The position numbers were made by a program, and so were the translations under genes. The notes beneath the pieces are model-generated. The model searched no databases. It was not told where the DNA came from and was given only the letters and a program-made list of their open reading frames with translations. 64,000 nucleotides of DNA, from contig JALHNZ010000006.1 of assembly GCA_022843265.1 (NCBI GenBank), positions 1-64,000 of the forward strand, written 5' to 3'. Of the stretch, positions 587 to 51,364 are shown one piece after another (the stretch's first letter is position 1; each line of letters starts with the position of its first letter). This stretch comes from Gemmatimonadaceae bacterium (GTDB lineage: Bacteria; Gemmatimonadota; Gemmatimonadetes; Gemmatimonadales; Gemmatimonadaceae).

Positions 587-1009
587 ATGCTGCTCTCCAT
601 CAGCGCTTCCGACGACTTGCCCATCTACCGCCAAATCATGCGGCAGATCATGGACGCCATTGCCGGCGGACGGCTGGCGCGTGGCGAACAGCTCTCGTCG
701 CACCGCGAGCTTAGCGAACAGCTGGTGATCGCGCCGCTTACCGTGAAAAAAGCGTACGACGAACTCGAGGCGCTGGGCTACATCACATCGCAGCGGGGGC
801 GCGGCACGTTTGTGAGTGACACACTGCCCAAAGCCGCGCAGGGCGTGCAGGCCGAACAGCTCGGTGAACTTGCCCGCAAACTGCTTTCGCAAGCCTACCT
901 CAGCGGCATGCGTCTCGCCGAAGTCATGCAGTTGCTTCGGCAGGCCGACCGCTCCCTGACCACCGGGAGCGACGTCGCTTCCCGCACCAGACGCAAGACT
1001 GCCATATGA
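587..1009 (+). CDS. GntR-family regulator, YtrA type
   Basis: A 140-residue protein beginning MLLSISASDDLPIYRQIM, the typical opening of YtrA-subfamily GntR regulators. The winged helix spans about residues 10-77 (SHRELSEQLVIAPLTVKKAYDEL, then the wing GYITSQRGRGTFV). A short C-terminal helical dimerisation tail replaces the large effector domain of other GntR proteins. The start at 587 is preferred over in-frame ATGs at 566 and 509 because 566 lies inside the dyad at 561-582. The stop overlaps the ABC ATPase start by 4 bases (ATGA), so the two are translationally coupled. Family knowledge says such regulators repress an adjacent ABC exporter operon until an envelope-acting compound appears. 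The inducer here is unknown. Confidence 0.9.
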   Translation: MLLSISASDDLPIYRQIMRQIMDAIAGGRLARGEQLSSHRELSEQLVIAPLTVKKAYDELEALGYITSQRGRGTFVSDTLPKAAQGVQAEQLGELARKLLSQAYLSGMRLAEVMQLLRQADRSLTTGSDVASRTRRKTAI

Positions 1010-1917
1010 AGCCTGTGATCATGTTCCGCGACGTGGTGCGTTCGTACGACGGCGGAAAGCCAGTACTCGACGGTGTCACCTTCTCCATGCAAAGCGAAGA
1101 AGTCGTGGGATTGCTCGGCCGTAACGGCTCGGGCAAGACCACACTCATGCGCATTGCCATGGGCATGCTGTTTCCGCACAAGGGTTCGGTGGAGTTGTTT
1201 GGGTTGTCGCCGACCGAACACCCGGTCGAGGTGAAGAAACGCATCGGATTTGTGGCCGCGGATCAGGAGTTGCCCATGTTCTGGAGCGTAGGTGAGTTGA
1301 TCGCGCTACATCGCAAGTTGTTTGCAAAGTGGGATGCGGCGATGGAAAAGCAGCTGCTCGAGCGATTTGCGCTGCCGCTGAATACGCGCCTGAACAAGCT
1401 GAGCACCGGTCAACGTCGACAGGCAGCGCTGCTCTGTGCTGTGTGTCATCGCCCCGAGCTGTTATTGCTGGATGAACCCGCGGCGGGACTCGATCCTGTG
1501 GTGCGCCGAGAATTTCTGGAGACCTCCATTCAGCTGCTTAACCGCGAAGGCACCGCGATTCTGTTTTCTTCACATCAGATGGCCGATGTTGAACGCCTTG
1601 GCGGACGCGTGCTGCTGCTGGATGGCGGCAGGATTCGTTTGGATCGGGACCTGGTCACGCTGCGCGAACAACTCTGCGTTGCGGTCATCACGCGTGCGGC
1701 GGTTGCAGATATGGCCGCGCTGGAACGCGCGCCTGGCGTGTTGCGCGTACGCACCATGCACGACAAGGTGCATGCCGTGATCGATGGCAATCCCGACTCA
1801 GTGAAACGGCTGCTCGCGGAGCATCTTGGTGTGCGCGATGCTGAGGTAAAGCGGGTGGGACTGGAAGATTTGTTTATTGAGATGTTGGGTGGCGAACGAC
1901 TGGAGTCTGCTGCATGA
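1006..1917 (+). CDS. ABC transporter ATPase
   Basis: A 303-residue ATP-binding subunit. Walker A GRNGSGKT is at residues 38-45, the signature LSTGQ at 132-136, and Walker B LLLLDEP at 152-158, followed by the H-loop (FSSHQMADVERL). The last ~90 residues form the accessory C-terminal domain common in exporters. It overlaps the regulator by 4 bases upstream and the first membrane protein by 4 bases (ATGA) downstream, so all three are coupled. It probably energises the membrane protein(s) that follow; the substrate cannot be deduced. Confidence 0.93.
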   Translation: MKPVIMFRDVVRSYDGGKPVLDGVTFSMQSEEVVGLLGRNGSGKTTLMRIAMGMLFPHKGSVELFGLSPTEHPVEVKKRIGFVAADQELPMFWSVGELIALHRKLFAKWDAAMEKQLLERFALPLNTRLNKLSTGQRRQAALLCAVCHRPELLLLDEPAAGLDPVVRREFLETSIQLLNREGTAILFSSHQMADVERLGGRVLLLDGGRIRLDRDLVTLREQLCVAVITRAAVADMAALERAPGVLRVRTMHDKVHAVIDGNPDSVKRLLAEHLGVRDAEVKRVGLEDLFIEMLGGERLESAA

Positions 1918-3509
1918 TGTGGCAGTTGGTGCGCGGCAACTGGCGCAGCCCGAAAGTTTGGGTTGTTCCTGCGGTGACAGCGGTCGGCGCGTTTCTCGAG
2001 CCGGTTGTCCTCGGCATATACTCGCTGTTTGTGATTGCGTTGATGGTGCCCCTGCTGCTGTCCCCCGCGGTATCCCTGTTCGAATCGGCCTTGCCAATTC
2101 CGACGCGCACCGTGATCGTTTCGCGGTGGATCGCCGCGAGCGCACTCGCGCTACCCGCGTTGCTTGCGGCGTTGGTGGCGACGCTTGTTCGCCAGCCTTG
2201 GCACATTGCCGACCCGTTGTCACCGCTGATGCTACTTGCTGCCTCAGCGTTGTTGATAATCGTGAACGGCGTTGTGTATCTGGGCGCTGCGCGTCCAGGT
2301 ACGACGCGCGTGGGCATCGTTTCGCGTGTGTTGCCAATCGTGGCCGCTGGCAGTGTTGTGCTCGTCTTGCTGCCTCCGATGGTAGCGATGACGTCGCTGG
2401 TCGTTTGTGCACTGCTGCTCCTGGCTGTAGTCGCGCGACGTATTCCACGCGTGATGGAACATGCACCACGGGAGTCTGCTCACAGCGAACCGACGGCTCT
2501 TGATCGTGAGGTTACGCTGAAGGATGCGACGATCTGGCGGATGCTGCTGAGATCGAGTCTTCACCATTTGTTATGGTTCCCGGCGCTGCTTGGTTTTCTC
2601 GCCGGGCAGAGCGGCGACGCGGGCATCCACATTCAGATGATCGGGCTCGTCTGCGGCATAGCTGTGGCGTCACGCCGATTCAATACATGGCTTCTGCGTG
2701 TACCCTTGCCGCATCGCACGCGTTTGCTACTCAGTATTGGTCCAACTATCTGCATCGGCTTTGGTGCCATGGCGCTAGGGGCGAGCATCTCACAGGAGCG
2801 CGTCTCCTCATTTCTGACGAATCAAGGGCCCACACCAAGAGATGACTACGACAATGAAACAAACGTCGCCATCACTTACTGGCAACAATTCAACTCCGAT
2901 GCGCAACCGCGAGTGATCGCGCCTTGGGGTGAATCGGTTTCCGCAGACACGCTCTCGCTGTTCGGAACACGCATCTTCAATCCGTACACCACAGATTCCG
3001 CAAGCAGTGAGCGGTTTGTGGATTGGCAGTTTGAGCGCGCAGCAACGGCGGCCTACGGTCAGTCCATGACTCGCGTTCAATATCGGGAACTACTGCAGCA
3101 AGACTCGCTTCCTCAGAAGAGCGTTGAAAAACCTCGGCTCTTCCTCACGCGAACCGCCTTGCTGCTCGCCCTGATTCTTGCCGTGCTGTGGTTCATTGAA
3201 CTCATGCGCTGGAACGGTTTCCGTCAATCGAAGCGAGTGCGAAATTTTACCCTTGGTGTACTTGTCGTACTCTATGTGCTGCCAAGTTTTCTGGAGCTCT
3301 ACTTTCACCACAAGAGTCACGGTGGCAGGCTCCTGCTGCCACTGGTAGATGGTGCCATGCTGCGCATTTCGCTCTGGTTGCCACACGCAACGAGTCTTGC
3401 TGTGCTCGTAAGCCTTGTTCCCGCTGTGGTGCTGTACTTCCTGCTTGAGTGGCAGTTCAAGAAAACGGACTCTGCGCATGAACTCGCGTACGTCGCGCGC
3501 GCGTCGTAG
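1914..3509 (+). CDS. Large ABC-associated membrane protein, copy 1
   Basis: A 531-residue integral membrane protein. A cluster of hydrophobic segments fills about residues 15-175, more lie around 215-300, a long polar region without membrane spans covers about 300-400, and hydrophobic segments return at about 410-520. The polar region holds APWGESVSADTLSLFG and SSERFVDWQFERA, shared almost residue by residue with the next gene. It is coupled to the ATPase by a 4-base overlap, so it is the likely permease, although its length and the soluble insert are unlike ordinary ABC-2 permeases of ~250-400 residues. No specific family is recognised. Confidence 0.8.
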   Translation: MMWQLVRGNWRSPKVWVVPAVTAVGAFLEPVVLGIYSLFVIALMVPLLLSPAVSLFESALPIPTRTVIVSRWIAASALALPALLAALVATLVRQPWHIADPLSPLMLLAASALLIIVNGVVYLGAARPGTTRVGIVSRVLPIVAAGSVVLVLLPPMVAMTSLVVCALLLLAVVARRIPRVMEHAPRESAHSEPTALDREVTLKDATIWRMLLRSSLHHLLWFPALLGFLAGQSGDAGIHIQMIGLVCGIAVASRRFNTWLLRVPLPHRTRLLLSIGPTICIGFGAMALGASISQERVSSFLTNQGPTPRDDYDNETNVAITYWQQFNSDAQPRVIAPWGESVSADTLSLFGTRIFNPYTTDSASSERFVDWQFERAATAAYGQSMTRVQYRELLQQDSLPQKSVEKPRLFLTRTALLLALILAVLWFIELMRWNGFRQSKRVRNFTLGVLVVLYVLPSFLELYFHHKSHGGRLLLPLVDGAMLRISLWLPHATSLAVLVSLVPAVVLYFLLEWQFKKTDSAHELAYVARAS

Positions 3510-33195: not shown

Positions 33196-34548
33196 CTAGT
33201 TGCGTGTGCTGCCCCCGATCGTACGTACGAATTCGCTGACCGCATCCGCGCCGCGTCGAACGTGCAAGACTGCGGGCGCGCCAATGGGCAGCAATACGCC
33301 GGCGCTGGCACGTGTCACGGTCGATGCGTCGGGATGCAGAAACAGCCCGTCGACGCGAATGGTGTCAATCGCGACGACGCCTGCCAGATCGCCCACTTCA
33401 CGCACTCGTCCGCCGGTGCGCGCAACGGCATCGTCGTAGTTGATGGCCAGGTCCACGCGCGCCGGTGCGCTGCCTGGCAAGACAAGGCTTCCACCAAGCA
33501 CCAGCAAGTCGCTCGCACCACCGGTATTGAACAGCAGCGTTTCATACGTGTCGGGATTCGCGCTACTCCATGCCCCGGTGGCAAGCGCGTCGAACACACT
33601 GATCAACGCGGCCACATGCAACGCGCGTAATCGCTGCTTCTGCGGATCGCCCGGCAGCGCACCACTTTCAATGAGTACGGTGCTGGTTCCCCACTGCTGG
33701 ATCAGATCGCCGAACGCGCGCGGATTGAACGTATCGTCGTATTTGGCGACACGATTTGGAAGTTCTGTCTGAAATGACGTGGCCAGCGTTGACGCGACAA
33801 GACGCGCGCGTGACCGCACGTCGTTGTATCCGCGAGACGCATCATGTGCAGGCGCCAGCAGCGCGATGGCCGCCTGGACACCGTCGCGACCGACACGTGT
33901 TCGTGCGTTCTGATCGTGCAGGTTGAAGCCGAACTTTGGCTTGAGCCGGTCATGCAGCGCCTTGAGCGCCTGCGCCTCCGGTGTGGAGAGCCGGCGCGCG
34001 TCGCGGTTGATATCCACACCGACCGCGTTCTCGCGCTGAAATACTTCCGCACCATCGGGGTTGAGCATGGGCAGGAAGACCAGTGTGACACCCTTCATGA
34101 TGCGTTCACGCAGCGCATCATCTCGACTTTCGGCGCGCGTATTGGCAAACCACCGCACGATGTCCGCCAACGCCATGGTTGCGGTAGACTCATCCCCGTG
34201 CATTTGCGACCAGAGCAGCACCGTATCGCGCCCGGTGCCGATCGTGATCGTGCGCAGCGGGCGCCCGTGCAGTGACTTACCCACTTCGTCTACCTTGAAC
34301 TCCGCGTACGTGGCAACGGGCAGCACGGCACTCCAGAACTGCTCGTGCGTGAACCGTCGTGTCGTAATGGTCGGTTCGCGATAGTCCGCCGCAATGCGCA
34401 GCGCCACACCCATCGCGCTGTCACCACAACACAGATTGACCGCCGCAGCGTTGGGCGTTGGTACTGTTTCGAGTGTGCGCGTTGAGCACGCACCAAACAC
34501 CGACACGCTCACAACGGCTGCGGCAACCAACGATCGCTTAGCGAGCAC
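33196..34548 (-). CDS. Secreted M14-family zinc carboxypeptidase-like lipoprotein
   Basis: A 450-residue protein starting at GTG 34548 with a lipoprotein signal (VLAKRSLVAAAVVSVSVFGAC). The zinc motif HxxE is HGDE in SQMHGDESTATMAL, with the third ligand H in FGFNLHDQN and the usual NPDGAEVFQREN...VDINRDAR stretch between. Late in the catalytic domain STVLIESGA supplies the general-base Glu region. The C-terminal ~100 residues form an extra domain. Peptidases of this kind cleave C-terminal residues or D-amino-acid links of peptidoglycan stems, and substrate is not resolved. The start overlaps the S41 stop by 11 bases. Confidence 0.85.
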   Translation of the reverse strand: MLAKRSLVAAAVVSVSVFGACSTRTLETVPTPNAAAVNLCCGDSAMGVALRIAADYREPTITTRRFTHEQFWSAVLPVATYAEFKVDEVGKSLHGRPLRTITIGTGRDTVLLWSQMHGDESTATMALADIVRWFANTRAESRDDALRERIMKGVTLVFLPMLNPDGAEVFQRENAVGVDINRDARRLSTPEAQALKALHDRLKPKFGFNLHDQNARTRVGRDGVQAAIALLAPAHDASRGYNDVRSRARLVASTLATSFQTELPNRVAKYDDTFNPRAFGDLIQQWGTSTVLIESGALPGDPQKQRLRALHVAALISVFDALATGAWSSANPDTYETLLFNTGGASDLLVLGGSLVLPGSAPARVDLAINYDDAVARTGGRVREVGDLAGVVAIDTIRVDGLFLHPDASTVTRASAGVLLPIGAPAVLHVRRGADAVSEFVRTIGGSTRN

Positions 34549-37500
34549 CCGAGTTCTCCCCACTGGCCGCGTTCCGGCTCGCGCGCAGCATGCGCAGCGC
34601 TTCCTGAATGGCTTCCATGAGTTCACGATCACGGCCCGCCAACTCGTCCATGGGAGAGTTGCGCACCCACACATCGGGCGGTACGCCGTAATTCTCCAGG
34701 TTCACACCGTAGTTGTTCGGCTTGCTCGGATCATACGTCACCACCAACGAGCCGGGCGTACGAATGCTGCCACCGTTAATGAGCGTGTAGCTGCCGGTGG
34801 CAATCACAGCGGCCGCCGTTGGGTTGCCCACAATACGCCCGAGTTCGAGCTGCCGGAATGCCATAGGCGTGACCTCGGAATCGGAGCCCGAACGCTGATT
34901 AATCAGCATGACCTTCGGACCGGCAATGGCCTGACGTGGTCGACGTCCCCAGCTGCGTGAGCCGCTGCGGTTGTTCCAGAATTGATACGGCTGCCGTTCA
35001 AGAATGTCGATCAGTTCCTGATCAATGTTGCCGCCACCATTGTAGCGAATATCCACAATGATACCGGCCTTGTTACTGAACTGATTGATCTCATTGCGAA
35101 ACACTTCGAGCGACGGCTGGTTCATGCTGCGAATGTGCACGTACGCAATCTGACCATTGGATTCCTTGTCAACGATCGCGCGACGCTCATCCACCCACTC
35201 CTGATATTTCACATCGCCGAGTGAGGTCACGGAGTTGATGCGCACCGTGCGCGCACCGTCTCCGCTGGCGCTGCTGGCCACGCGAAGCGGCACGTAGCTG
35301 TTCAAGGTGTTGCTCAGCGTTTTCCAGTAGTTGTCGCCCGCTTTGAGATCCTGACCATCAATGGCGAGCACGTACTGCCCCACCTCAAGGTTCAACCATT
35401 CCTTGTCGGCCGGACCGCCGCGATGCACGTGCGAAATGCGATAACGACCGGCTTTCTCATCGGCCTCAAGCTCAATGCCAAGCAACCGCGTTTGCGTAAT
35501 GCGCGGCATGGAGCGAGACGGGGGGCCGCTCACGCCGGTGTGCGACGCATTCAACTCGCCAATCATTTCATTGGCCAGATCGTACACGTCTTCATTCGTG
35601 CCAACGTGCGCCAGCAGCGGCTCGTACGTGCGCCAGATCGCATTCCAGTCACGTCCGTGCATTTTCTCATCATAGAAACGGTACTTCATCACACGCCACG
35701 ACTCGGCCAGCAGCTGGCGCCACTCATCGCGACGGTTCACCTGCACCGCAAAGTTGAAGTTCACGCGCTCGGTGCGCTGTGGTGTCGCAATCACCAGCTT
35801 GTGAATTTCTGTGCCAGACGTTGTTGGCGGGCCGTCGCTATCCGCGCCGCCCGTAGCCGCTCGTCGGAAGAACACGGTGCGGCGATCAACGGTTGGCGTG
35901 AGACCCTGAAATACGCCGGCCGCAATACGACGGCGATTCTGGCCGTCGAGACCAATGACAAACAGCCCATTCGCGTCTTCGCCGGTGCCACCGGTCACAG
36001 TGAAGTGAACCGAGCGTCCATCGCGTGCCAGGAACAGGTTGCCGGCACTGCCCGCACCCCGGGTGAGTTGGATGGCACGCCGCGCAATGCCGACGGTGTC
36101 GATCGTAATCGGTGCCGCGGGCGGAAGTGCAGCGGCCGGAGCTGCGGCGGCTGCAGTCGCCGTGGTATCCGCCCGCTCCGGTCGATTTCCCGCGCGACGC
36201 AGACGCTCGCGCACCAGCGGATCGTTCGGATCTTCCTGCAATCGCGCCAGTGACACGACAAACAGATGATTCGTGCCGGCATCCCGTGACGACGTGAACA
36301 CGAGCTGCTTCCCGTCGGGCGTGAGCACCGGATTACCGTCGTTGAACGGATTGTTGCTCACATTGTATTCACGACGCGCGCCGATATCGAACAGAAACAC
36401 ATCGGCGTTCTGATCATCGTCTCGGCGCGTGTACACCAGCCAGCGTCCGTCACCGGAGTACTGCGCAATGGAGTATCCGCCCGCTGGATTGTGCGCGAGT
36501 TCGCGCGACGTCCCGTTCGCGAGCTCTACCTCCCACAGGCGATTGTCGGCCACAAACGCCAGCTTGCGCGAATCAGCGGCCCACGTGAGATCGCTCTTGA
36601 TGGATTCGTGCGTGGTGAGCTTGCTCCGCGCACCTGTACCACGCTCCCACAACCAGATCTCCTCTTCACCCGATTCGTCGGAGATGTACGCAATGCGACG
36701 TCCATCGGGCGACCACAGCTGACTGCGCTCTCGCCACGGGGAGTTGGTCACACGCGCCAGTTCGCCCACTCCATCTTCGCTCGGTACCACCACAATCTCA
36801 CCATGCACATCAACGGCCACGTAGTCGCCGGTTGGTGACACGGTAAATCCGTCCGCACGATTGTTCGCCGAAATCACACCGATATCGTTCTCTTTCGGGT
36901 CAAACGCCATGCGGATGTCGACGCGCTGCGGCTGACCGCCAGCCACGCTGAGCGTCCACAAACTGAAGTTGTTTTCATAGATGAGACGCGATCCATCGGG
37001 CGAGATTGACGGGAACTGCACGCCGTCGTCGGCATGACGCGTGATCTGCTCCGGGGCGCCCCCCGCTGCGTTGATGCGCCATATGTTGAAAATCCCATCG
37101 CGCTCAGACGCAAAGTAGATGCGACCATCCGCGCCCCACATGGGGTGCACATCATGGGTGGCCGACTGGTACTGTTTGATGTCGGTGTCGGTGAGTTCAG
37201 TGATTGCGCCGGTGCGCAGATCCTGCACCGCGATATCCGCATTGTTGTTGCCCCGATATCCCTTGCGCCAATAGCTCGGCACGGAGCGGTTGAACGCCAC
37301 CATGGTCATGTCCTGCTTGATCATGCCCGAACGGCCGGCATCCATTGGCAGTGCACGCGGCAGCGAACCGTCAAGCGCCACGCGATAGAGTGGGGAACCC
37401 CATTGTTTCACGCCTCGGCTGGAGGTGAACACCACTTCGCGTCCGTCGGGCGTCCAGTAGAGTGCCTGATCGTCTCCACTATGCCACGTCAGCTGTTTGG

Positions 37501-37894
37501 GTTCGCCGCCCGAGACCGGCACCACGTACACATCGTTATTGCCCATGCGATTGCTGGTAAACGCAATCCACTGACCATCAGGCGAAAAACGCGGCATCAT
37601 GTCGCGCGCGACGTGCGCCGAGAGACGTCGTGCATTGGCACCATTTGCGTCGGCCAGCCAGATGTCATCCTGGTAGGTGAACGCAATGCGCCCGTCGTTG
37701 GCCACGTGCGCGTAGCGGGCAAAACGAATGGGTGAGTTGGCTGACTGCGCACTCGCGGATTGTGCGCTCGCGGCGGCCGAGAGCAGCAGGGCTGCCAACG
37801 CTGCGAGCAGTGGTGCGCGTTGACTACGTAGACGCGACGCGATCAGGTCTCGCGGCGCGGCGAGTGGGCGGGGTGCACCGAGCAGGGAAGGCAT
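34538..37894 (-). CDS. Tricorn-like S41 peptidase with TolB-type propeller
   Basis: A 1118-residue secreted protein with a signal peptide (LLAALAALLLSAAASAQS). N-terminal beta-propeller repeats follow the WD40-like TolB pattern (MPRFSPDGQWIAFTSNR, LYWTPDGREVVFTSSR, RSQLWSPDGRRIAYISDE). A tricorn core region has ELNASHTGV (Ser-His), then a PDZ domain (LNLEVGQYVLAIDGQDL) and the catalytic domain ending INQRSGSDSEVTPMAFRQ, with nucleophile Ser near residue 1000 and the late Glu in NLENYGVPPDVWV. Such enzymes degrade peptides into short products. Start 37894 (MPSLLGAPRP) is followed directly by the signal peptide, and GGAG lies 10 bases upstream. An Ala/Thr-rich linker sits around residues 580-605. 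Confidence 0.93.
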   Translation of the reverse strand: MPSLLGAPRPLAAPRDLIASRLRSQRAPLLAALAALLLSAAASAQSASAQSANSPIRFARYAHVANDGRIAFTYQDDIWLADANGANARRLSAHVARDMMPRFSPDGQWIAFTSNRMGNNDVYVVPVSGGEPKQLTWHSGDDQALYWTPDGREVVFTSSRGVKQWGSPLYRVALDGSLPRALPMDAGRSGMIKQDMTMVAFNRSVPSYWRKGYRGNNNADIAVQDLRTGAITELTDTDIKQYQSATHDVHPMWGADGRIYFASERDGIFNIWRINAAGGAPEQITRHADDGVQFPSISPDGSRLIYENNFSLWTLSVAGGQPQRVDIRMAFDPKENDIGVISANNRADGFTVSPTGDYVAVDVHGEIVVVPSEDGVGELARVTNSPWRERSQLWSPDGRRIAYISDESGEEEIWLWERGTGARSKLTTHESIKSDLTWAADSRKLAFVADNRLWEVELANGTSRELAHNPAGGYSIAQYSGDGRWLVYTRRDDDQNADVFLFDIGARREYNVSNNPFNDGNPVLTPDGKQLVFTSSRDAGTNHLFVVSLARLQEDPNDPLVRERLRRAGNRPERADTTATAAAAAPAAALPPAAPITIDTVGIARRAIQLTRGAGSAGNLFLARDGRSVHFTVTGGTGEDANGLFVIGLDGQNRRRIAAGVFQGLTPTVDRRTVFFRRAATGGADSDGPPTTSGTEIHKLVIATPQRTERVNFNFAVQVNRRDEWRQLLAESWRVMKYRFYDEKMHGRDWNAIWRTYEPLLAHVGTNEDVYDLANEMIGELNASHTGVSGPPSRSMPRITQTRLLGIELEADEKAGRYRISHVHRGGPADKEWLNLEVGQYVLAIDGQDLKAGDNYWKTLSNTLNSYVPLRVASSASGDGARTVRINSVTSLGDVKYQEWVDERRAIVDKESNGQIAYVHIRSMNQPSLEVFRNEINQFSNKAGIIVDIRYNGGGNIDQELIDILERQPYQFWNNRSGSRSWGRRPRQAIAGPKVMLINQRSGSDSEVTPMAFRQLELGRIVGNPTAAAVIATGSYTLINGGSIRTPGSLVVTYDPSKPNNYGVNLENYGVPPDVWVRNSPMDELAGRDRELMEAIQEALRMLRASRNAASGENSGAR

Positions 37895-38030
37895 GGCCGA
37901 CAGTCTCCAGGAAGGGGATGATGCCGAGGAATATGCGCCGCTCTCCTGCACCACGCTCCCCCCGTTGCACTCGTCGCACGTATTTTTCTCCGCTGGTTGT
38001 CAGCTCGACCTCCCCTTGCCCGCACACTCC

Positions 38031-45968: not shown

Positions 45969-47558
45969 TTAGTTCGGCAGCAGACGCGTCTTCTCGAGGA
46001 AGACTTCGCGCCCCTTCCGCTCCAGCAGATAGACCACACCGTTCGTTCCAAAACCTGCAATGCTGCGACCGGCGGGCAACTGCACGCGGTGCACAAGCTC
46101 TCCCTTGCGGTTAACCACATCGTACGCGAGTCCCGACGCCTCCGGGGCCGCCATGCCAGCCGGCAACATGCCTGCGGGAATCTGACCACGCACGTTGGCC
46201 GGAATCATCGCCGACATCTGCGCGGCCAGGGTCGAGGTCGTAGGCAGAATCCAGAGGTTGCCATCTTTGTCGGCTAACGTGCTGCCGGCGCGAATGGGCG
46301 GGAAATAGTCGGGCAGATAGCTGGCGTCCACCGGGTCAAACGCCGGACGGAAACGTCCCGCGCCACCGCTGGCGGCCATCATCTGTTGTGCACGCTCGGT
46401 GGCTTCTTTCGAGGCCGTCTTGAGCGAGTCAACGATCTTGTCCTTTTCTTCGTCGGTAATGCGCTTCCAGTCGAACGGCAGCGGCGCTGAACGCTGCACC
46501 GACCCATCAGGACCGATGTAGTCAATGCGATAGTCGAGCACACGCACAACCGCGACCGTACCGTCAGCCAGCAGTGCCCAGTCATCGTTCTGCGGCAGCG
46601 GATTCATCTTCACGCTCATTTGCGTGCCGCCGTCTTCCGTGGCCTTCATTTCAACCTGCGGATTCGTCACGCGCATGAACGCGACCGTGTCGGTCTTTCG
46701 CGTATCGAAGTTCGCGCGCAGGATCGGTACCGAGTCGGGCAGGTTCTGCTGATTAAACGAACGCGTGCGACGCTCACCGTTCACAGTGATCTGCGCGCTG
46801 TTGGCGCCGCCACCGGGGAATCGGTCTTCCTGCACCGCCGCAACCTGTCGACGAATCTCCGCCGCCGTCTGCTGGTTAGGATTGGCTGGCGCCGTCTGAC
46901 CACCACGACCGCCTTGCGCCTGTGCGCCCTGGCCCGGCTGGCCGGTCTGTCCACCGCGACCGCCGCCACCCGCACCGCCGCCACCGCCAAACATTCCGCC
47001 CGCCATGCCCATCATACCTGGCGTGCCTGCGAAGCCACCACCAAAGCCGCCGCCACCTCCACCGCCAGTGCGGTAAATCAGGCGACCCTCTGAATCGAAC
47101 GCGTTCGAACCAAGGTTCGCGTTCGCCAACTGATTGAGATCGTTGGAGCGAGGCGCTGACATCACGCGCACCATTTCACCACGTGCGTTGAGCACCAGCA
47201 TCGACAGCGTGGCCGGATCAACGATTAGCGTGGAGTCTGCAATGTACGGCAACAATCCCGCGTTGCGCTGGCCATAGGGAATGGCCGCCTCGAACGTATC
47301 CGCGACAACTTTGGAAATCTTGAGATCTTGATCAAACAGAACGATCTGACGGCGCGTGCCATCATTCACGAGCAACGTCCCGTTGCTCAGCGCACGCAGC
47401 GTGTTCACGTTGCCAAGTGACTGCGCCGTTTTGGCTTCCACCGGGCCGAGCTTGCGCACCGGAATCTGCACCGCCTTGGCGGCCGTCGAATCTTGCGCCG
47501 CCAACGGAGCGGCGAACAGCGCCATCGTCGCGAAGGAATACAGTGTCTTACGCATCAT
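45969..47558 (-). CDS. Secreted propeller protein with glycine-rich insertion
   Basis: A 529-residue protein with a signal peptide (MMRKTLYSFATMALFAAPLAAQ). The 6-bladed-propeller-like repeats include LGNVNTLRALSNGTLLVNDGTRRQIVLFDQDLKISKVVAD, NDDWALLADGTVAVVRVLDYRIDYIGPDG and the closing LAYDVVNRKGELVHRVQLPAGRSIAGFGTNGVVYLLERKG. Between them, about residues 165-230, lies a Gly-rich stretch (FGGGFAGTPGMMGMAGG, then GGRGGQTGQPGQGAQ), low-complexity and likely unstructured. An in-frame ATG at 47618 abuts the receptor stop (TAATG) and could couple translation, but 47558 begins the signal peptide. It ends at the terminator at 45912-45943. Confidence 0.82.
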   Translation of the reverse strand: MMRKTLYSFATMALFAAPLAAQDSTAAKAVQIPVRKLGPVEAKTAQSLGNVNTLRALSNGTLLVNDGTRRQIVLFDQDLKISKVVADTFEAAIPYGQRNAGLLPYIADSTLIVDPATLSMLVLNARGEMVRVMSAPRSNDLNQLANANLGSNAFDSEGRLIYRTGGGGGGGFGGGFAGTPGMMGMAGGMFGGGGGAGGGGRGGQTGQPGQGAQAQGGRGGQTAPANPNQQTAAEIRRQVAAVQEDRFPGGGANSAQITVNGERRTRSFNQQNLPDSVPILRANFDTRKTDTVAFMRVTNPQVEMKATEDGGTQMSVKMNPLPQNDDWALLADGTVAVVRVLDYRIDYIGPDGSVQRSAPLPFDWKRITDEEKDKIVDSLKTASKEATERAQQMMAASGGAGRFRPAFDPVDASYLPDYFPPIRAGSTLADKDGNLWILPTTSTLAAQMSAMIPANVRGQIPAGMLPAGMAAPEASGLAYDVVNRKGELVHRVQLPAGRSIAGFGTNGVVYLLERKGREVFLEKTRLLPN

Positions 47559-47617
47559 GTTGACGGGCTCTGAAGAAGAAAACAACAGCCGATGAGCGAG
47601 CGTGCGGTTCGTGTGCA

Positions 47618-50600
47618 TTAGCGACCGCCTCGGCCGCCGCCACCACCCATTCCACCCATTCCACCACCGCCGCCACCAGCGGTCCCCGAGCGAATGGCAC
47701 GCAGTGAACGCGCGTCCATGAACGCGGCCAGCTGCGCCGGCAACAAGCGATACTGCTCGGCGGACAACAGGGATTTGATTTCCGGCACAATGCGCAGCAG
47801 CATGTCGACCGTCTGCTCACGACCCTTGCGGTACTTGTTGAACGCGATGTCGTGATTAAAACGATCGGGCAGTTCGGCAAACTCGCGTGCGAGCGGTGCC
47901 CAGACCGAATCACTCTTGAGCACGTACCAGCGATTCAACGTGGCCAGGCTGTCTGCCTGCTTACGCGTCAGGCGCAGCGTGTCGGACTGCTGGAGAATCT
48001 GCGCCATTGGGTTGAGCAGACCAGCGCTCACCGTACCGCGCAGCTGCTGCGCGCTCGGCTTGTTGCCAGGACGCGTGCGACCACGGTCAAGCGTCTGCAT
48101 GAGCGTCTGCCGTTCACGCGTGGGGCCAACGTCGAATGTGAGCGACGCGGTGATCGACGTTGGCGAGCGTACCGCATTCTGCTGCGGACGCGTGTTGCCA
48201 AAGCGCTCGTTCACTTCGTACGCGTATTCCTTAGTGAGCGGGTTAAAGCCGCGCACGTACAGCAACTGGTCGTCAGCAATTGGTGTTTGTCCCCAACCCT
48301 TCAGCTTCTCTTCGCCATTCATCAGGCGATCGAGACCGCCAAGCGGGTTCTGCACGTCAAGACGGAGATTCACGCGCTGCGGCAGGCCAACCATGATCGA
48401 GTTGAACATGATCGACAGGTTTCCCCCAGTTACCCAGGGACGCTTGCAGGAGTTTCGACCGGCGAGCTGTCCAAGCTGCGACAGGATACACTCGCGTGCT
48501 TCACCCGTAGTGCTCGCCAACAGCGCTTCCATTCCCGCCGCAACTCGCGTATCCGGCGTGTTGGCCGGATCGAAAATGAACGCGCGGTCATTGCTGTAGC
48601 TATCGCCGTTCACATCGCCGGCAATGCGCGGTGTGTAAGGCGTTCCAGAGCGAAAATTCATACCATACCTCAACGTCACGCGCTCGAAGAACTGACGAGT
48701 GAGGTTGATCTGGAACGCGTGACGCGAAAAGTTGCCGGGGCCCCACTCGCGCGACATCGGATCACCAACGGTGCTCGAAAATCCGTAAAACTGTTCGCGC
48801 ACATCAGCCAGCACATAGTTCACATTCCACTGAAACGCAGAGTTGAACGCGAGCGGGCTGAGCGTCACGGTGAGCTGCTTGCTTTCGCTGGTCAGACCCG
48901 ACGTCTGCTGCGTCACCCGACCGAAGTCGTCAACGACACGCGCTTCACGCCAGGCAGTCTGGCCCGTGGTGGGCACGATCACCGACGGCGACACGAACAC
49001 CGGGCGGTTCCCTTCGTTCGCAAGCAGGAACTGCTGCTGGCCCGGGAAATTCAGATCGATGCTGCCCGTCTGCGCGAGGTTGCGTGAGTACGTCGCATCA
49101 ATGGAGCTGCGGAAGCGATTCCCAAGAATCGCACCGGCCCACTGCAGATTCGTACGCAGCGAACGCTGGGCATTGAAGTTGTTGCCAAACAGTGTGACGT
49201 TCGGATTGCTGTTCGAGAACACTGTGCCGGTCGTCCCGTCAGCACACGTAAGCGGAATGTTTCCGACATCAATCTGATAGTCACTCCAGTTCGGCGACGG
49301 CGCGGCGGCGCCAAAGCAGGTGAGCTGCTGCAGCCCGCTCGCCAAACCCGTGTTGTCGATCGCGCCCTGAATGAGCTGCGTATTCGGCGTATTCTGGAAG
49401 ATGCCAATGCCACCGCGCACCACGGCGCGCGGCGCCCGAATCATGCCCGGAATGAATGCAACCTGCGCATCGGTGCCGTACGTCCACGAGAAGCCAACAC
49501 GTGGGCTTACGTACAACCGATTTGGTACCGCGGCGTTGTCGAGGTTGAACGCCGACACCACGGCCGGATTGGTAGTCGGTCCCATCAGGAAACGATTGCC
49601 ATCCACACGCACACCGTACTGCACCTGCACGTCGTTGATCGGACGCCACGCGTCACCGAGCGACATCGCGCCCACAACCTGGCTGCCGTTGCGGCGACGC
49701 GGCGCCAGCTGACGGGTGTACGAGGCAGGCGTGCCGGATTGCAGATCAGCCAGCGAGTTGAAGCTGAAGGTGCCAAGCTCGTTTGTGGTGAAGTCCTGCC
49801 AGTAGCTCTCGTAGCGCAGCTCACTGGTGAGCTTCACGCGATGCCGATTGTCGTTGCTGAACAACGAGATGGTGTTGACGAGACCGAGATTGGAGTTGCC
49901 GCTCTGCGTGTTCGAGTTGGGGCTTCCACCGAACGAGAGGTTACGAACACTGCCCGTACCGTTCTCAAGCGTGGAGTTCACACGCACCGAAGCGGCCGGC
50001 AAAAACGCGTAGGGATCCTGACCGCTGCGGCTGATGCTTGCGCCGAGCGATGTTTCCGTGAGTGCGCCGAACAAGCCAAGCAAACCGCTCTGACGCAGCT
50101 GCAGTGACCCACTGTACGACAGGCTCTTGCCCTGACGCGTGGGCGTGGAGAGCGCAGATCCACCGCCACCGCCACCGCCACCAAATCCACCACCGCCGCC
50201 GCCCGCCGGCACCGAGCGATTGAAGTTGCCCGACATGGCTAACGAGTAGGTATTGCCACGCGCCGAGTTCAGCGGCGTAAAGTCAAAGCTCGTGAGCAAG
50301 CTGCCGCTCGTACGAATCGTCTGTCCCGGGAACCCCGCGATGTTCGCCGGCAGCCCCTGACCACCGAGGATATCCAGGAAGCGCGAAACAGAGTCGACCG
50401 CAACACCCGCAGTGTTGAGACCAAGCGAGTTCGTATTCAGCAATGTCTGCAAATCATTCAGACGGCTGTCAAACTGGAATGATCCGTTGTAAAACAGCCG
50501 ATCAAACGAAATCGGACCGGACGCTGAACCGCCGACCGAAATGTTGGTGTACTGCTGGCCGGTGGCCGCCGCGGCGCGGTCGGTCCACTGCATGGCCGGC

Positions 50601-51364
50601 GCAACGAGATTCGAGCTCAGCGAACGACGCATGAAGTTCGAGCCGGCGCGCGTGCGCAACGAAATCTGTCCGCCCGAAAAACCACCGCGTGCCACATCGT
50701 ACGGCGACGTGGAAAGCGACTGGAACACCGCCGCATCACGCGGAATGTTTGTTTCACCAAATCCGAGGCCGTTGAGCTGCGTGTTGTTCTGATCGCCGCC
50801 CAACCCGAACACAGAGAACTGATCCGCGCCGCCATCGGCACCCGGAATCAGCTGCACGCCCGGAATCGCCGACGCCATGGCCACGAGGTCGCCCATCTGC
50901 TCAGCCGTAAGCTGCGCGGCGTTCGCATCCGCCAGATCGCGTTCGTTACCGCTCACGTCACCCACCGTATCACCGCGCGTCGCGGCCGCACGAGTCGTCA
51001 CCGTCAAGGCATCGAGGTTCACCGCGGCCGGCGCCATGCGCGCGTCAGCAATCAGGATTTCCTGATCGGCCGTGCGCTTCACCTGATAGCGGCGCGGCGT
51101 GAGGCCGATCGCATTAAAGCTCACCCAGTAGTCACCTTCACCACCGGGGAACGAGATGGTGTATCGACCATCGCGGCCCGACGTCACGCGTCGGCTCACC
51201 TGACCGGTGAGCGTGGTGGCCGTCACCGTAACGTTTGGAATTCCTTGGCCATCCGGGCCCGTAACGCGTCCGCGGATGATATCGACGCCCTGAGCGGCTA
51301 GCGGTGACGCAAAGCCGAGGACGAGAAGCAGGGCCCCGAGGGCCAGAGATCGTAGAGTATGCAC
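47618..51364 (-). CDS. TonB-dependent receptor with regulatory domain and Spy/CpxP-like tail
   Basis: A 1248-residue outer-membrane receptor starting at GTG 51364 with signal MHTLRSLALGALLLVLGFASPLAAQ. A CarboxypepD-regulatory domain (IIRGRVTGPDGQGIPNVTVTA) and the plug domain (DALTVTTRAAATRGD; MGDLVAMASAIPGVQLIPGADGGADQFSVFGLGGDQNNTQLNGLGFG) precede the barrel, which ends with a TonB-receptor-type strand set (ASLTFDVGPTRER). A Gly-rich loop (GGGGGGFGGGGGGGGS) lies in the barrel near residue 395. The last ~130 residues are not barrel: they carry LTRKQ and LSAEQ, the LTxxQ motif of Spy/CpxP periplasmic chaperones, then a poly-Gly/Met tail. The C-terminus would be periplasmic. Substrate is unknown. 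Confidence 0.9.
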   Translation of the reverse strand: MHTLRSLALGALLLVLGFASPLAAQGVDIIRGRVTGPDGQGIPNVTVTATTLTGQVSRRVTSGRDGRYTISFPGGEGDYWVSFNAIGLTPRRYQVKRTADQEILIADARMAPAAVNLDALTVTTRAAATRGDTVGDVSGNERDLADANAAQLTAEQMGDLVAMASAIPGVQLIPGADGGADQFSVFGLGGDQNNTQLNGLGFGETNIPRDAAVFQSLSTSPYDVARGGFSGGQISLRTRAGSNFMRRSLSSNLVAPAMQWTDRAAAATGQQYTNISVGGSASGPISFDRLFYNGSFQFDSRLNDLQTLLNTNSLGLNTAGVAVDSVSRFLDILGGQGLPANIAGFPGQTIRTSGSLLTSFDFTPLNSARGNTYSLAMSGNFNRSVPAGGGGGGFGGGGGGGGSALSTPTRQGKSLSYSGSLQLRQSGLLGLFGALTETSLGASISRSGQDPYAFLPAASVRVNSTLENGTGSVRNLSFGGSPNSNTQSGNSNLGLVNTISLFSNDNRHRVKLTSELRYESYWQDFTTNELGTFSFNSLADLQSGTPASYTRQLAPRRRNGSQVVGAMSLGDAWRPINDVQVQYGVRVDGNRFLMGPTTNPAVVSAFNLDNAAVPNRLYVSPRVGFSWTYGTDAQVAFIPGMIRAPRAVVRGGIGIFQNTPNTQLIQGAIDNTGLASGLQQLTCFGAAAPSPNWSDYQIDVGNIPLTCADGTTGTVFSNSNPNVTLFGNNFNAQRSLRTNLQWAGAILGNRFRSSIDATYSRNLAQTGSIDLNFPGQQQFLLANEGNRPVFVSPSVIVPTTGQTAWREARVVDDFGRVTQQTSGLTSESKQLTVTLSPLAFNSAFQWNVNYVLADVREQFYGFSSTVGDPMSREWGPGNFSRHAFQINLTRQFFERVTLRYGMNFRSGTPYTPRIAGDVNGDSYSNDRAFIFDPANTPDTRVAAGMEALLASTTGEARECILSQLGQLAGRNSCKRPWVTGGNLSIMFNSIMVGLPQRVNLRLDVQNPLGGLDRLMNGEEKLKGWGQTPIADDQLLYVRGFNPLTKEYAYEVNERFGNTRPQQNAVRSPTSITASLTFDVGPTRERQTLMQTLDRGRTRPGNKPSAQQLRGTVSAGLLNPMAQILQQSDTLRLTRKQADSLATLNRWYVLKSDSVWAPLAREFAELPDRFNHDIAFNKYRKGREQTVDMLLRIVPEIKSLLSAEQYRLLPAQLAAFMDARSLRAIRSGTAGGGGGGMGGMGGGGGRGGR

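Follow-up and report, generated by a model that had tools for sequence, protein, structure and literature searches.

TonB-dependent receptors normally end at the last strand of the barrel, which carries the C-terminal signal recognized by the assembly machinery, and both ends of these proteins face the periplasm. A barrel-end signal located internally, with a soluble periplasmic domain behind it, is familiar from OmpA, whose C-terminal domain binds peptidoglycan. Among soluble chaperones of the envelope, Spy of Escherichia coli binds outer-membrane proteins in their unfolded state and keeps them from aggregating; it protects certain members of this group and, where other chaperones are lacking, aids the biogenesis of outer-membrane proteins (PMC8546600). 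Among receptors, the Oar protein of Myxococcus xanthus combines a CarboxypepD_reg domain, a plug, and a predicted 22-strand barrel, and is required for secretion of the protease PopC (PMC6434023).

We examined a stretch of 64,000 nucleotides (hereafter the window) from a Gemmatimonas-type genome of the Gemmatimonadaceae. It encodes a receptor that, like the Oar subclass as described for Oar (PMC6434023), carries an N-terminal CarboxypepD_reg extension, a plug, and a large barrel. Unlike the OMP_b-brl_4 receptors of its own genome that end at the barrel, it adds an LTXXQ-type domain of ~110 residues after a linker. The placement of a soluble domain behind an internal barrel-end signal resembles OmpA-type proteins, but the tail is unrelated to the peptidoglycan-binding domain of OmpA, and the barrel is that of a plugged TonB receptor. 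Similarly, the tail shares with Spy, CpxP, and other LTXXQ proteins (PF07813; structures 3oeo, 3itf, and 5ihf) two L[TS]xxQ motifs that fall in register, a prediction of about four helices, and profile homology. It differs from free periplasmic Spy and CpxP in being covalently attached to an outer-membrane barrel, and its subtype has extra DSxWxP and LP motifs. We are highly confident that the protein is an Oar-subclass TonB receptor that continues past its last strand into a domain of the LTXXQ superfamily. In the open-access literature, we found no paper discussing such tailed receptors. The architecture is visible in databases, since sibling proteins already receive a Pfam score for the domain.

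Receptor layout and the end of the barrel

The receptor (Table 1) is translated from a GTG start and spans 1248 amino acids, the first 24 of which resemble a signal peptide. Pfam places CarboxypepD_reg at residues 30-102 (E 7e-14) and OMP_b-brl_4 at residues 471-985 (E 8e-12). The plug, at residues 148-212, scores 23.3 against a curated cut-off of 23.9 bits (E 9e-5). The Oar-subclass layout is present, with its plug half a bit under the line.

A preliminary description of the window, made from the sequence alone, had put the end of the barrel near SITASLTFDVGPTRERQ, and this is indeed the strand at which tail-less homologues stop. Those homologues come from related genomes; their alignment with the window receptor runs through YxVNExFG, and they terminate at the end of the following strand in QLGARYAF and similar sequences, whereas the window protein goes on past that point. 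In the same genome, a further five OMP_b-brl_4 receptors were found, each closing with a final strand of the canonical kind, aromatic or hydrophobic (C-termini GVRYVF, LTLRLAF, GVRYNF, SARWLF, and NVQYRL). The same description had recognized a real tail after the barrel, put at ~130 residues, and its coordinates (47618-48000) are correct to ~100 bases. The true start lies about 100 bases further upstream, near 48106, such that the tail comprises receptor residues 1087-1248 (47621-48106, minus strand), or about 160 residues. An assembly or frame artefact is ruled out by recurrence of the architecture in ~100 genomes and by a diverged paralogue on contig C166, which is a second tailed receptor in the same genome.

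The length of sequence behind the barrel follows barrel relatedness. All examined homologues matching the barrel at E 3e-30 or better have 140-205 residues behind the matched barrel, and all those examined at E 4e-22 or weaker have at most 71. In a maximum-likelihood tree of 67 barrel segments, all 58 tailed rows fall on one side of a single branch (support 99), and the tail therefore marks a clade. A single gain of the tail would be the simplest reading of this unrooted tree. The preliminary description had suggested a survey of homologous receptors for the same extension; every close barrel homologue examined has it, and absence from all orthologues was not seen.

A low-confidence AlphaFold model of the tail (pLDDT 65), built from a shallow alignment of four close sequences with the loci from the genome searches left out, has helices at 19-44, 48-78, and 85-111, and in pieces at 116-140 (tail-fragment numbering). 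Both L[TS]xxQ motifs are located at or near the starts of helices, namely the second and the last, and the LTxxQ motifs of Spy likewise lie at or near helix starts. The preliminary description would have been refuted by a disordered tail lacking helices, and such a tail is ruled out by the predicted helices together with strong conservation. The predicted helices are placed as a cradle-shaped four-helix fold might have them. Foldseek returned no significant match and no PDB neighbor for the tail model, which is too weak. A model of barrel plus tail reached a pLDDT of 28 and was not used.

Relation of the tail to the LTXXQ superfamily

On its own, the window tail has no Pfam LTXXQ match, falling short of the curated cut-off for PF07813, and only 3 of 28 tails from close relatives match this family, at E about 0.02. 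In the same bacterial family, many open reading frames of 1200-1400 amino acids do exceed the PF07813 cut-off at their ends, and these are receptors built on homologous barrels. Profile comparisons used alignments of 28 window-type tails (A2), of thirty such sibling receptor tails (A4), of free-standing LTXXQ proteins of the family (A5), and of the pooled tails (A7). Among the sibling tails, 24 of 30 match PF07813 (best E 2.5e-9).

The window-type and sibling profiles align in hhalign at 98% (E 4e-14) with both motifs in register. The score of this alignment is 81, whereas reversing the sibling profile gives 22.5 and none of 60 column shuffles exceeds 18.2. Window-type tails also align with the free-standing proteins (85%, E 6e-6), and pooled tails do so at 97.8%. 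In turn, the profile of free-standing proteins finds Spy (3oeo, E 3e-17), CpxP (3itf, E 7e-11), and 5ihf (E 4e-7), while the pooled profile finds the Spy-like protein 5ihf (E 2e-4) and Spy (5wo1, E 0.002) over both motifs. Apolipoproteins and designed helices appear in the same PDB match lists at similar E-values, which indicates that composition contributes and that direct PDB E-values are insufficient by themselves. Stronger evidence comes from the series of intermediate tails carried on one barrel family. Profile comparison thus supports the view that the window tail is a distant member of the LTXXQ/Spy-CpxP superfamily, reached through intermediate receptor tails. Given that the window tail lacks a PF07813 match while sibling tails exceed the cut-off, we propose membership in the superfamily rather than in the Pfam family as drawn. 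The kinship with Spy and CpxP proposed in the preliminary description is borne out in this form, as distant homology seen in profile matches through sibling tails, with decoys far lower. A match of the tail to HMW1C_N (E 0.02) is below cut-off and was taken as chance.

All the elements that had been named earlier (LTRKQ, LSAEQ, and a Gly/Met-rich end) are found in the translated tail. The two motifs are 68 residues apart. A pair of L[TS]xxQ motifs separated by 60-80 residues occurs in 28 of 28 window-type tails, compared to a mean of 0.06 and a maximum of 2 in 500 shuffles (the rows being related rather than independent), which rules out chance occurrence of the pair. The same pattern is present in 20 of the 30 sibling tails and is in register in the pooled profile. 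The Gly/Met-rich end is, from its sequence, variable and of low complexity, and is placed outside the helical domain. Within helix 2, DSxWxP is invariant among window-type tails, and an LP motif is a further addition of this subtype. The LTXXQ-type sibling tails lack DSxWxP and the LDRGRxxxG linker in the window-type form.

In other genera (L024-L032, for example L027 and L030), the tail ends after its Gly-rich stretch in TIEIRR, TMTIIR, or VIVR, which are short, strand-like peptides, rather than in GGRGGR. Separately, the genome that includes the window encodes one free-standing LTXXQ protein above the Pfam cut-off (L086; 79259-79543 of contig C2), which is 194 amino acids long from its ATG.

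Table 1. Features of the tailed receptor and its downstream neighbor (window coordinates; residues are those of the receptor)
Feature	Coordinates	Strand	Basis or remark
Oar-type TonB-dependent receptor	47618..51364	-	Signal peptide, CarboxypepD_reg, plug, beta-barrel, and C-terminal tail; open reading frame and Pfam
Last barrel strand ITASLTFDVG, residues 1071-1080	48125..48154	-	Tail-less homologues stop here; own-genome paralogues
Linker with conserved LDRGRxxxG, residues 1087-1117	48014..48106	-	L3, G6, R7, and G11 invariant in A2
Spy/CpxP-like (LTXXQ superfamily) domain, predicted helical, residues 1118-1228	47681..48013	-	A2-A4 profile match with decoys; AlphaFold2 helices; genome surveys
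First L[TS]xxQ motif, LTRKQ, residues 1132-1136	47957..47971	-	Start of predicted helix 2
Second L[TS]xxQ motif, LSAEQ, residues 1200-1204	47753..47767	-	Start of last helical part
Gly/Met/Arg-rich low-complexity C-terminus, residues 1229-1248	47621..47680	-	Variable among homologues (C-termini compared)
Conserved secreted partner, 549-amino-acid open reading frame	45969..47618	-	Directly downstream of receptor; propeller-like repeats by eye; no Pfam match

Distribution of the tail and the downstream partner gene

Searches with the window tail identified it in 85 of 298 Gemmatimonadota genomes, and the profile of 28 tails identified it in 99 of 295, nearly all from the same family, the Gemmatimonadaceae. 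Eighteen genomes of this family had no match to the 28-tail profile. Fourteen of these hold a good-scoring barrel homologue with a sibling tail (typical end ILTPEQWAKVP), two have only weak, tail-less barrel matches, and two have no barrel match. The pooled profile matches 211 of 295 genomes of the phylum, of which about 100 are Gemmatimonadaceae. Strong matches among those listed are in open reading frames of about 1100-1700 amino acids, with a few in shorter frames, many of which are probably contig ends. Some of the weak matches (E about 1e-4 to 1e-9) are probably free-standing LTXXQ proteins, and the number of genomes with the receptor-tail architecture is therefore at most 211. Across these surveys, receptors of this barrel clade carry the tail in the majority of Gemmatimonadaceae as well as in further families of the phylum. 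One contig scan matched only three Gemmatimonas relatives, and the nearest named records are Gemmatimonas metagenome-assembled genomes.

Within Gemmatimonas, dN/dS is 0.10-0.17 for the tail core and 0.15-0.22 for the barrel, values that are rough because synonymous sites are near saturation. Selection on the tail is about equal in strength to that on the barrel, and the tail is a real, conserved domain. Retention of an extension from a chaperone superfamily across much of a phylum suggests either that a large barrel receives chaperone help in cis or that the receptors transport proteins. It also provides a functional lead for hundreds of receptors that so far carry only the name of their N-terminal domain or the label TonB-dependent receptor.

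The receptor stop codon overlaps a possible ATG of the partner gene in the sequence TAATG. A start with a signal peptide at about 47558, giving ~530 amino acids, is likelier. The partner has repeated DxxGxLxVxD-like patterns that by eye suggest a beta-propeller, and it has no match in Pfam, NCBIfam, or the PDB. Its gene is directly downstream of the A2-type receptor in 65 of 65 close-homologue loci with enough DNA (several of which are the same place twice), and also follows the receptor in L191, from another family. The LTXXQ-type sibling receptors are tailed too, and no such gene lies behind them. This rules out the partner as a general reason for the tail and shows that it belongs to the subfamily of the window receptor, not to tails in general. 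It is possible that the protein is a secreted or substrate-binding partner of the receptor. A propeller-like protein with weak similarity to DUF5128 (E 0.045) is also encoded downstream of a distant tailed receptor (L196, positions 915-2120, minus strand; genome G140), and is possibly an equivalent.

Possible roles of the tail

Given the topology of TonB receptors, the tail is presumably periplasmic. The preliminary description had raised contact with TonB or with unfolded cargo as possibilities. The mechanism that we consider most likely, and propose tentatively, is that the tail would serve as a tethered, ATP-independent holdase. At the periplasmic opening of the receptor to which it is attached, it would bind polypeptide that is unfolded or only partly folded. 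The lead for this proposal is the binding of unfolded outer-membrane proteins by Spy (PMC8546600). The clients of the tail could be polypeptide cargo or, while the receptor assembles and its plug moves, parts of the receptor itself, such as the long Gly-rich barrel, the plug, and the N-terminal domain. Of these two options, we lean slightly toward a role in the biogenesis and stability of the receptor. To our knowledge, Spy has no equivalent of DSxWxP, and the invariance of this motif in the window subtype suggests that the subtype may have drifted to another binding job.

It is possible, if somewhat doubtful, that the receptor instead moves a protein across the outer membrane in the manner of Oar, with the tail keeping this cargo, perhaps the partner, transport-competent. 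Oar has the same domain order and is a TonB-dependent transporter needed for PopC secretion (PMC6434023), and wherever enough downstream DNA was available, a conserved secreted-protein gene lies directly behind the A2-type receptor. However, tailed siblings of the LTXXQ type lack this gene, and thus the partner alone cannot explain the tail. The broader proposition that such receptors form a phylum-wide group of TonB-dependent transporters that incorporate a periplasmic chaperone of their own, and that the tethered Spy-like domain would handle polypeptide cargo in TonB-powered export or import rather than small nutrients, seems to us rather unlikely. We judge it improbable that the helices instead form a structural or docking domain with no chaperone activity, one that would hold the receptor to TonB, peptidoglycan, BAM, or, since Spy is a dimer, another copy of the receptor. 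An invariant DSxWxP and a GRxxxG-type linker would suit a fixed interface, and a single split on the barrel tree would suit a structural part, but the homology is to chaperones and adaptors rather than to known docking modules, and no particular partner is indicated.

Other members of the superfamily, including CpxP and periplasmic metal sensors, take part in signaling, and the profile of free-standing relatives does reach CpxP. By analogy, the tail might, instead of chaperoning, inform a signaling partner of envelope stress, of metal, or of the state of the receptor, as CpxP or CnrX/ZraP do. This role appears still more improbable, since the tail has no invariant His or Cys in the A2 alignment and no sigma/anti-sigma or kinase gene was recognized beside the receptor among the open reading frames examined. 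A metal site of the CnrX/ZraP kind would require such residues, and with PF13801 also not found in the genome, this particular reading was rejected as unlikely. Finally, the resemblance to LTXXQ proteins might be convergent, amounting to a helical tail that happens to have two short motifs capping its helices. The window sequence by itself is below all thresholds, and charged helical sequences match spuriously, as the apolipoproteins illustrate. Yet a continuous series of tails on homologous barrels leads from the window type to proteins above the Pfam LTXXQ cut-off, and no decoy comes near the profile score obtained, which makes convergence very improbable.

Elsewhere in the window, positions 34538-37954 (minus strand) encode a Tricorn-type protease with PD40 repeats and Tricorn_C1, PDZ, and S41 domains.
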